A stretch of DNA of 64,000 nt from Stenotrophomonas indicatrix. Lineage in GTDB: Bacteria; Pseudomonadota; Gammaproteobacteria; Xanthomonadales; Xanthomonadaceae. Below the pieces are notes generated by a model. It was not told where the DNA came from, ran no database searches, and saw nothing but the letters and a program-made list of their open reading frames with translations. The number at the start of each line of letters is the position of its first letter. Within the stretch, counting starts at the first letter, position 1. A program made the position numbers and the translations under genes. Positions 9,969-61,651 of the stretch are shown in pieces. The DNA is taken from contig CP168152.1 of NCBI GenBank assembly GCA_041545745.1, positions 618,001 through 682,000 of the forward strand. Direction: 5' to 3'.

Positions 9969-10075
9969 GGGCCCGGGCGGGTGGGCTGCGCAGGGGTCGC
10001 TGCAAGTACGTCCCTGTAAGCTCGGTCGCCGCATCCATGCGGCTCACGCCCCTGCGCAGCCCACCCGCCCGGCCC
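9969..10075 (-). repeat. Structured repeat A: long inverted arms around a 52-nt two-hairpin core
   Basis: Arms 9969-9996 and 10049-10075 are complementary over 27 bp with a one-base bulge. They enclose exactly 52 nt (9997-10048). Read on the minus strand, the core has hairpin 1 (GCCGCAT-GG-ATGCGGC) and hairpin 2 (TAC-AGGGAC-GTA), each presenting CA-N-GGA-N-G in its loop. The element points toward the chitinase gene. Its outer flanks match copies B-D only weakly. Confidence 0.85.
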
Positions 10076-10125
10076 CCGACAGGTTCATGCGCGCGCCAGC
10101 CACGAAAGACGAACAAAAAATCAAG

Positions 10126-10161
10126 ATCAAACGCCGATCGCTTCGCTCTCAGGCGTTTGAT
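10126..10161 (-). terminator. Hairpin with minus-strand T-run
   Basis: ATCAAACGCC and GGCGTTTGAT form a 10 bp perfect stem around 16 nt. Read on the minus strand, the stem is followed by TTGATTTTTTG. This is terminator-like, but there is no minus-strand gene just upstream, so it could instead be part of the repeat cluster. Confidence 0.4.
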
Positions 10162-10172
10162 TTCCAGGGAGC

Positions 10173-10220
10173 ATCCACGCATGGCATGGATCTACCGTGT
10201 CGACCAAGGTCGACACCTAC
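10173..10220 (-). repeat. Two CTAC-ended palindromes (SMAG type)
   Basis: Unit 1 (10173-10195) is ATCCACGCATGGCATGGAT plus CTAC; unit 2 (10197-10220) is GTGTCGACC-AA-GGTCGACAC plus CTAC. Both have their GTAG end on the minus strand, so they are tandem in the same orientation although their stems differ. Confidence 0.75.
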
Positions 10221-10244
10221 CAACAGCAGCAGGAAACTGTCGAA

Positions 10245-10346
10245 GGCGGGGTGGGTCCGGTTGCGGGGGCGTGAGCGCCATGGATGGCGCGCCCGAGCCT
10301 ACATGGACGTATTCACGGCGTCCCCCGCAACCGGACCCACCCCGCC
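10245..10346 (+). repeat. Structured repeat B: long inverted arms around a 52-nt two-hairpin core
   Basis: Perfect 25 bp arms at 10245-10269 and 10322-10346 enclose 52 nt (10270-10321). The core on the plus strand has hairpin 1 (GCGCCAT-GG-ATGGCGC) and hairpin 2 (TAC-ATGGAC-GTA). It is preceded by AGCAGCAGGAAACTGTCGAA and followed by a GTTGCT/TCGGCT-like hexamer tract and a GCCGGGC hairpin (10417-10433), flanks shared with copies C and D. It is oriented toward purL and divergent from copy A. Confidence 0.88.
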
Positions 10347-34910: not shown

Positions 34911-34996
34911 GGGGGTTCGGCCGGGCTGCGCCCGGCACCCGCCGAAGCCGAAGCCGAGCAACGGCAGCAGCAACAGCGGGTTTACTGGGGGAGGGC

Positions 34997-35092
34997 GGGG
35001 CACTGTGGGTTTGCGGGGACGCCGTAAATACGTCCATGTAGGCTTGGTCGCCGCATCCATGCGGCTCACACCCCGCAAACCCACAGTGCCCC
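34997..35092 (-). repeat. Structured repeat C: long inverted arms around a 52-nt two-hairpin core
   Basis: Perfect 22 bp arms (34997-35018, 35071-35092), unrelated to the arms of A and B apart from G-richness, enclose 52 nt (35019-35070). On the minus strand the core contains GCCGCAT-GG-ATGCGGC and TAC-ATGGAC-GTA. The tail hairpin (34920-34936) follows the gspD stop, so in the plus direction the element could also act as a 3'-end structure for the operon. Confidence 0.88.
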
Positions 35093-35166
35093 ACCTTCGA
35101 CAGTTTCCTGCTGCTGACGGATCTGATCCCAAGAGTCGGTCCGACAGTTCGCGGAAAACTGTCGAA

Positions 35167-35268
35167 GGCGGGGTGGGTCCGGTTGCGGGGGTGTCCGCGG
35201 CATGGATGCCGCGGCCAAGCCCCCAGGGACGGGTTTACGGCGTCCCCCGCAACCGGACCCATCCCGCC
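35167..35268 (+). repeat. Structured repeat D: long inverted arms around a 52-nt two-hairpin core
   Basis: 25 bp arms (35167-35191, 35244-35268) with one G-T mismatch, nearly identical to the arms of copy B, enclose 52 nt (35192-35243). Hairpin 1 has an extended stem CCGCGGCAT/ATGCCGCGG and hairpin 2 has CCC-AGGGAC-GGG in place of TAC...GTA, so both stems are preserved by paired changes. It points toward the glycosyltransferase gene at 35394. Confidence 0.88.
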
Positions 35269-35393
35269 ATCCCACGGAATTCCCGCGGTTGCTGTTGCTT
35301 CGGCTTCGGCTTCGGCTTCGGCGGGTGCCGGGTGCAACCCGGCCGACACCCACCCGATGCTACGCTGTGGCCACCGACAACCACGGAGGCGGG

Positions 35394-61403: not shown

Positions 61404-61431
61404 GCCCGCGCCGGTTCGCCGGTACACAAAC

Positions 61432-61570
61432 GTCTTCAGGGCGGGGTGCAATTCCCCACCGGCGGTAGGTGCGCAAGCACGAGCCCGCGAGCGCCCCGGT
61501 CTTACCGTCGGGGGTCAGCAGATCCGGTCAAATGCCGGAGCCGACGGTCATAGTCCGGATGAAAGAAGAC
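61432..61570 (+). promoter_or_regulatory. FMN riboswitch (RFN element)
   Basis: The RFN core is evident: closing stem GTCTTC (61432-61437) with GAAGAC (61565-61570), the conserved AGGGCGGGGTGCAATTCCCC and ACCGGCGGTA blocks, then AGCCCGCGAGCGCC, GGTCAGCAGATCCGGT and a final GACGGTCATAGTCCGGATGAAAG. A stem CAGGGCC-TTTGC-GGCCCTG (61578-61596) and a GC stretch ending GGCGTTTTT (61616-61625) follow and could form the FMN-dependent terminator of the ribE-ribB-ribH operon. Confidence 0.95.
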
Positions 61571-61651
61571 GGTGCCACAGGGCCTTTGCGGCCCTGCGCC
61601 CGCCTGTTTGCCTTGCGGCGTTTTTCGCTCACTTTTCGCGGAGAACGTTAC

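Follow-up and report, generated by a model that had tools for sequence, protein, structure and literature searches.

A dispersed twin-hairpin repeat of Stenotrophomonas indicatrix with GGA loops, apparently selected as RNA: a probable RsmA/CsrA-binding element

Two pairs of similar palindromic sequences in a 64,000-nucleotide stretch of the 4.66-Mb Stenotrophomonas indicatrix genome, referred to below as the window, raise the question of whether such repeats are maintained as DNA or as RNA and, in the latter case, what reads the GGA motifs in their loops. An earlier sequence-only reading had described four copies of one design, with arms that differ between copies and are complementary within each, and all four were located. 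Copy A (9972-10073, minus strand) has arms 10049-10073 and 9972-9996, core 9997-10048 and hexaloops ATGGAT (10033-10038) and AGGGAC (10010-10015). Copy B (10245-10346, plus) has arms 10245-10269 and 10322-10346, core 10270-10321 and hexaloops ATGGAT (10280-10285) and ATGGAC (10303-10308). In copy C (34994-35095, minus) the arms are 35071-35095 and 34994-35018, the core 35019-35070 and the hexaloops ATGGAT (35055-35060) and ATGGAC (35032-35037), and in copy D (35167-35268, plus) the arms are 35167-35191 and 35244-35268, the core 35192-35243 and the hexaloops ATGGAT (35202-35207) and AGGGAC (35225-35230). The strand given is the one reading GGA in both loops; the corresponding genome matches of our model R1 are C1:627987-628059 (minus), C1:628259-628331 (plus), C1:653009-653081 (minus) and C1:653181-653253 (plus).

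Each copy thus consists of a 25-nt arm, a core of exactly 52 nt, as had been claimed, and a second 25-nt arm, 102 bp in all. Watson-Crick pairs join 24, 25, 24 and 24 of the 25 arm positions in A to D, respectively, and a single G.U arm pair occurs in C and in D. All eight hexaloops conform to ANGGAN, in agreement with the proposed GGA loops: loop 1 is ATGGAT throughout and loop 2 is AGGGAC in A and D and ATGGAC in B and C. The opposite strand, thought to lack GGA, does so in three of the four cores, and that of copy D contains one GGA. The centre of the outward-pointing pair A/B (10074-10244) holds palindromes of the GTAG-type REPs known from Stenotrophomonas together with CTGTC-type flanks of both copies, the REP letters in the pair centres being matched by eye to a table in the accessible part of PMC2817692; the centre of pair C/D (35096-35166) is a short form. 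CTGTC-like flank letters were also seen, by eye, in some other genera. Directly before the stem, flank columns -28 to -14 carry a conserved CGGAAA.CTGTCGAA, and the 3' flank that separates the element from the following gene, for example at 35269-35345, contains a GTGCCGGG...CCCGGC hairpin as well as hexamer-like GTTGCT/TTCGGC repeats. Elsewhere in the window, an FMN riboswitch (RF00050, 113.9 bits) lies at 61428-61574 on the plus strand.

RNAalifold and pair counts resolve the core into a three-way junction. Hairpin 1 has a two-pair lower helix (columns 12-13 with 36-37) followed by up to seven pairs, hairpin 2 has three pairs, a 5-nt 3' bulge and three further pairs, and both end in ANGGAN, with 20 nt between the two GGA motifs. 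The two hairpins drawn in the sequence-only reading are therefore present, and its drawing was incomplete in omitting the bulge and the lower helix that creates the junction. Among 30 copies from this genome (28 distinct rows), 95.0% of cells are paired, as opposed to 36-50% in slid registers, and 19 of the 25 pairs have changed on both sides. Double-changed cells number 152 against a shuffle mean of 47.9, a value reached in none of 500 shuffles; of the five measures compared with shuffles, that of further pair types showed no excess (32 versus 34.1). For 77 matches from other genomes (69 distinct rows), whose alignment was fitted to the model and so leans to the structure, 97.3% of cells are paired, 21 of 25 pairs are changed on both sides and double-changed cells number 368 versus 91 in shuffles. 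In some genera the stems of hairpin 1 have been entirely rewritten with the loop kept. The covariation whose absence over many copies had been named as grounds for abandoning the proposal is thus strong in this genome and in others.

The genome contains at least 150 copies according to R1, which was built from 30 of them, and three more two-box sites lie inside the fetched loci beyond the R1 copies. The genome-wide pattern search that had been proposed (two CANGGANG boxes and a fixed AGC, with up to two mismatches) returned 185 matches versus 19 for the reversed pattern. With gaps below 1 kb, the 150 copies, a lower bound, fall into 101 clusters: 47 minus-then-plus, one minus-minus-plus, 53 single, some of which may have a lower-scoring partner, and none plus-minus. 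Since the order is always minus then plus, the GGA strands of a pair point outward; GTAG REPs occupy the middle of some of these pairs. One 250-kb bin (G000:C1, 2.25-2.5 Mb) has no cluster, and 25 of the 101 lie at 3.25-3.75 Mb. A BLAST search (distant setting) of copy B against plasmids gave no match. Within the 100 clusters fetched (148 copies), CANGGANG is in place in both hairpins of 143; of the five copies that fail, one does so in hairpin 1 and four in hairpin 2, where loss of a single base has displaced the box in two. Arm counts leave out three of the 143, whose arms are not in register. In the remaining 140, which have the enclosing outer stem also found in RF01731 (see below), stem pairing extends over 25 bp and drops just past that, and 68 have G at the first N of loop 2; in copies from other genomes, preselected for both boxes, the stem measures approximately 25-28 bp.

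The mismatches of this stem bear directly on the level at which it is selected, because a mismatch read as G.U on one strand appears as A.C on its complement, and selection on the RNA of one strand should therefore produce an excess of G.U there. On the GGA strand of 108 distinct arm pairs, mismatches comprise 83 G.U, 5 A.C and 41 others, or 39, 5 and 30 when each combination of arm family and position contributes one event. Relative to family majorities (six arm families with at least four members, covering 81 of the 108 distinct arms), 33 one-sided changes led to G.U, 5 to A.C and 19 to other mismatches, and 47 two-sided changes preserved a Watson-Crick pair. Expressed as mutations, the arms show 26 C>T versus 3 G>A and 7 A>G versus 2 T>C. 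In these families the 15-nt flanks have 21 C>T, 18 G>A, 16 A>G and 8 T>C; arms and flanks differ with Fisher P values of 0.0016 for the C>T part and 0.0036 for all transitions, both approximate since the copies are related to one another. The A>G counts are too few for separate judgement, and the flanks lean the same way (16 versus 8), which counts against the interpretation. A mutational strand bias of C>T as the cause of the G.U excess is not supported by the flanks. In other genomes, 146 distinct copies gave 213 G.U, 31 A.C and 165 others under a filter that is symmetric for G.U and A.C, requires both boxes and excludes one locus from the present genome (L257), with 60 copies dropped; a looser filter, which admits more chance matches (167 copies, 35 dropped), gave 265, 78 and 356. 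An initial assignment to DNA-level selection, made when 30 copies showed almost no G.U, was dropped after 140 copies had been counted. The G.U excess on the GGA strand, not seen in the flanks, points to selection on the RNA of that strand, an explanation of the mismatch bias that we regard as close to settled; together with the covariation, it bears out the earlier claim of a strand-specific RNA structure.

Genes predicted with a home-made codon-usage gene finder were never overlapped by more than 40 nt (0/148 copies). Among gaps of at least 100 bp in the fetched loci, with duplicates removed, the 101 that hold an element comprise 40 convergent, 54 codirectional and 7 divergent ones, compared with 9, 50 and 43 of the 102 without; the window pair A/B is located in a divergent gap, a rare placement. 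The upstream gene lies on the element's strand in 101/148 copies, and a crude scan found an intrinsic-terminator-like site ahead of the element in 25 of these 101, which counts against read-through. The downstream gene lies on the other strand in 97/148, with its 3' end 31-105 nt off in 88 of the 97. An antisense hairpin serving this adjoining gene was considered and rejected, as it is the opposite strand that shows the bias. By gene context, G.U versus A.C counts are 44 versus 1, 17 versus 2, 26 versus 2 and 2 versus 0, the third pair coming from the 39 of 148 copies that have both neighbouring genes on the opposite strand. That these copies keep the bias means that gene read-through is insufficient to account for all sense transcription; copies without a same-strand neighbour would either be served by another promoter or have acquired the bias through exchange among copies.

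Exchange of this kind is suggested by comparisons between species. Of 61 genomes of the genus, 57 have a match to gspD, the gene that marks the locus of copies C/D, and among the best-matching 30 of these 57 loci the element is present at 23. Arms and cores have been swapped as modules between species, including a replacement of TAC/GTA by CCC/GGG in hairpin 2 on the same arms, and this looks like gene conversion among copies. Within minus-plus pairs (42 of 47 comparable), no partners share 90% arm identity where 4.6 would be expected (P 0.004), a deficit suggestive of avoidance of long perfect inverted repeats; the mean identity of arms in pairs, 0.588 versus 0.598 in shuffles (sd 0.024), is not lower beyond noise, and core identity within pairs is weakly lower (P 0.07). 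With the best 24 candidates scored per genome, R1 detects the element in 54 of 198 genomes of the family and 16 of 54 genera. Model R2, applied with strict filters to the best 13 candidates per genome, detects it in 75 of 369 gamma-proteobacterial genomes and 66 of 271 genera, and a sample of the phylum yielded 33 positive genomes out of 398, with one weak match outside the class (E 1.4e-4). Positive genera among the matches listed include Lysobacter, Arenimonas, Luteimonas, Marinobacter, Halospina, Rheinheimera, Alishewanella, Alteromonas, Kineobactrum and Parahaliea, and one genome of the host's own genus rated 100% complete (G029) gave no match in any of the three genome surveys. Other arrangements were also observed: locus L175 (755-1573) holds a tandem array of three minus/plus pairs with a period of approximately 293 bp, and G792:C1:94434-95643 holds six copies on one strand approximately 227 bp apart, unlike the outward pairs of this genome.

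The sequence-only reading recognised no published name for the element, which in fact is related to the TwoAYGGAY RNA, Rfam RF01731 (listed as such in the accessible part of PMC2864571). Rfam at gathering score gave no hit at the window copies, and RF01731 returned none at E values up to 10 in the two loci that hold the four copies between them (L021 and L023); in the whole genome it has one match, of 31.6 bits, under the gathering score of 43. On 46 of the 75 R2-positive genomes, 12 match RF01731 at E <=0.01 and five exceed gathering, and one copy from the class (L226) reaches 44.0 bits. All 30 RF01731 loci from these genomes that were compared by eye coincide with an R2 match in the same place and on the same strand, two of these R2 matches being weak. 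The element and RF01731 form one kin group, and the window copies fall outside the family by its formal score; AYGGAY loops are found in hairpin 1 of A-D and in hairpin 2 of B and C. What is new with respect to the family is the scale, the strand-specific RNA selection, the fixed stem length, the paired placement near gene ends, the modular exchange between copies and a reach far past RF01731 detection. A literature search, largely of titles and abstract openings, retrieved no description of this twin-hairpin repeat. The Yersinia sRNA Ysr224 (RF02770) gives matches of up to 35 bits, versus a gathering score of 70, on the strand opposite the GGA strand (L191 1509-1617, minus; L229, L235, L239, L021 and L023), and widespread annotations of Ysr224 may in part represent that opposite strand.

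The sequence-only reading took hairpin 2 to fit the consensus for RsmA/CsrA, and the comparison supports it. The accessible part of one account gives the CsrA SELEX consensus as RUACARGGAUGU and describes sites in six-nt loops above four or fewer pairs, with bridging at 10-63 nt (PMC7652899); hairpin 2 agrees with this consensus and the 20-nt GGA spacing is within the bridging range, both of which favour predicted CsrA binding. A C-G-closed ANGGAN hexaloop in which A and GGA are conserved is present in both hairpins of 143/148 copies here and of 70/77 elsewhere; one or both boxes are broken in the other 7, which counts against binding, as do the three pairs below the loop of hairpin 2, a possible A-U pair within loop 1 and several single-sequence folds that lack hairpin 2 as drawn. 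The host has one csrA/rsmA gene, whose protein has L4 and R44. A csrA gene was identified in 70 of the 75 genomes that bear the element versus 243 of 294 others, and, in genomes at least 90% complete, in 61 of 62 with the element versus 219 of 252 without, low contamination also being demanded of the latter group. This association may just mirror reduced genomes that lack both. One element-bearing genome that is 98% complete (G391) gave no CsrA match, which counts against CsrA binding, and neither did four less complete ones. From the motif evidence, binding by RsmA/CsrA is probable.

Our preferred explanation, which we consider probably correct, is a dispersed, mRNA-borne RsmA/CsrA-binding element. 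It would be transcribed mainly within the 3' untranslated read-through of neighbouring genes, its RNA would present two ANGGAN hexaloop hairpins atop a rigid 25-bp stem, and the two loops, 20 nt apart, could be held by the two faces of a single dimer; the copies, at least 150 in number, might jointly form a distributed decoy or buffer and might also mark or stabilise individual mRNA 3' ends. The likeness to sponge RNAs proposed earlier stands as regards two motifs at bridging distance and fails as regards a single sponge gene, since the repeat is dispersed in at least 150 copies. A fuller version, in which a genome-wide RsmA/CsrA buffer in mRNA 3' ends is kept by copy exchange and RNA-level selection, is offered tentatively, and we lean towards doubting it.

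Placement behind gene ends with divergent gaps avoided, together with a stem that stops at 25 bp over the 140 copies in register, would also suit a structure at RNA 3' ends with a role in transcript protection, processing or termination, its stem serving as an exonuclease block or RNase III substrate and its GGA loops being read by a factor other than CsrA (another RNA-binding protein or an anti-Shine-Dalgarno sequence), and the RNA-level bias leaves the protein unnamed. A stem alone, however, needs no A plus GGA with a variable N in both loops, and although the antisense hairpin is the one nearest the adjoining gene's 3' end in 97/148 copies, the sense strand is the one that carries the bias; we consider a 3'-end structure of this kind unlikely. 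More improbable still is a DNA-level mobile palindrome, similar to REP/BIME or MITE sequences, whose single-stranded hairpins would be recognised by a transposase and spread selfishly. The strand-specific G.U excess absent from the flanks, the retention of orthologous position at the gspD loci and the lack of a GTAG head at the element end all argue against it, even if a DNA hairpin formed by one strand and more tolerant of G.T than of A.C could give a similar bias, and even if many copies, outward pairs with GTAG REPs central in some, a patchy occurrence among relatives (54/198 family genomes) and the precedents of YPAL and REP are what such an origin would predict. Chance or an alignment artefact of GC-rich sequence has a probability close to nil: high G+C makes hairpins common, but the shuffle, slide and pattern controls (185 versus 19 matches) refute this reading, and conservation across genera speaks against it as well.

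If RsmA is bound, the genome would offer approximately 300 or more candidate sites, two per copy, in intergenic gaps, whereas E. coli CsrB, according to the accessible part of PMC7652899, has 22 GGA sequences in one RNA. The accounting of free CsrA/RsmA would then change in many gamma-proteobacteria, and an RNA family listed since 2010 would gain a function. Were the proposed buffer real, free RsmA would track total transcription, and Csr control here need not depend on one sponge gene. The strand-specific comparison of G.U with A.C, for its part, provides a general way to determine whether palindromic repeats of bacteria are selected as RNA or as DNA.

Xanthomonas campestris, which belongs to the same bacterial family as the host, provides one point of comparison among known systems. 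Its RsmU (sRX061) is, in the accessible part of its description, a 3'-UTR-derived RsmA-binding RNA with GGA motifs (PMC7694677), a likeness by description and not by sequence, with RsmA binding predicted in our case; RsmU is a single locus with 3-4 GGA motifs, and with all four changed both RsmA binding and function persisted. As in sponge sRNAs of the CsrB/RsmZ type, hairpins with GGA loops stand at bridging distance (PMC7652899, in the part accessible), but those RNAs gather many sites at one locus and the element places two at each of many. The GTAG REP/BIME sequences of Stenotrophomonas are likewise intergenic, high-copy and palindromic; in the accessible parts of their accounts they are 20-40 bp long, GTAG-headed and RAYT-linked, with no twin GGA loops described (PMC2817692, PMC3733652), whereas the element measures 102 bp and neither its consensus nor any of the four copies carries GTAG at an end, GTAG letters occurring within the antisense core of TAC/GTA copies. 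YPAL/RU-2 of Yersinia, an intergenic palindromic repeat of approximately 168 bp said to be co-read with upstream genes (PMC2229807, PMC2267715, each in the part accessible), is comparable by description and not by sequence. TwoAYGGAY, proposed in 2014 as a CsrA-binding RNA by motif match (PMC4333381, accessible part), differs in that hairpin 2 of the present element often reads AGGGAC in place of AYGGAY and has a 5-nt bulge, in that the window copies score below gathering, and in that the accessible description of the family is without the copy number and paired arrangement found here; the two share an outer stem and two hairpins with GGA loops on one strand.
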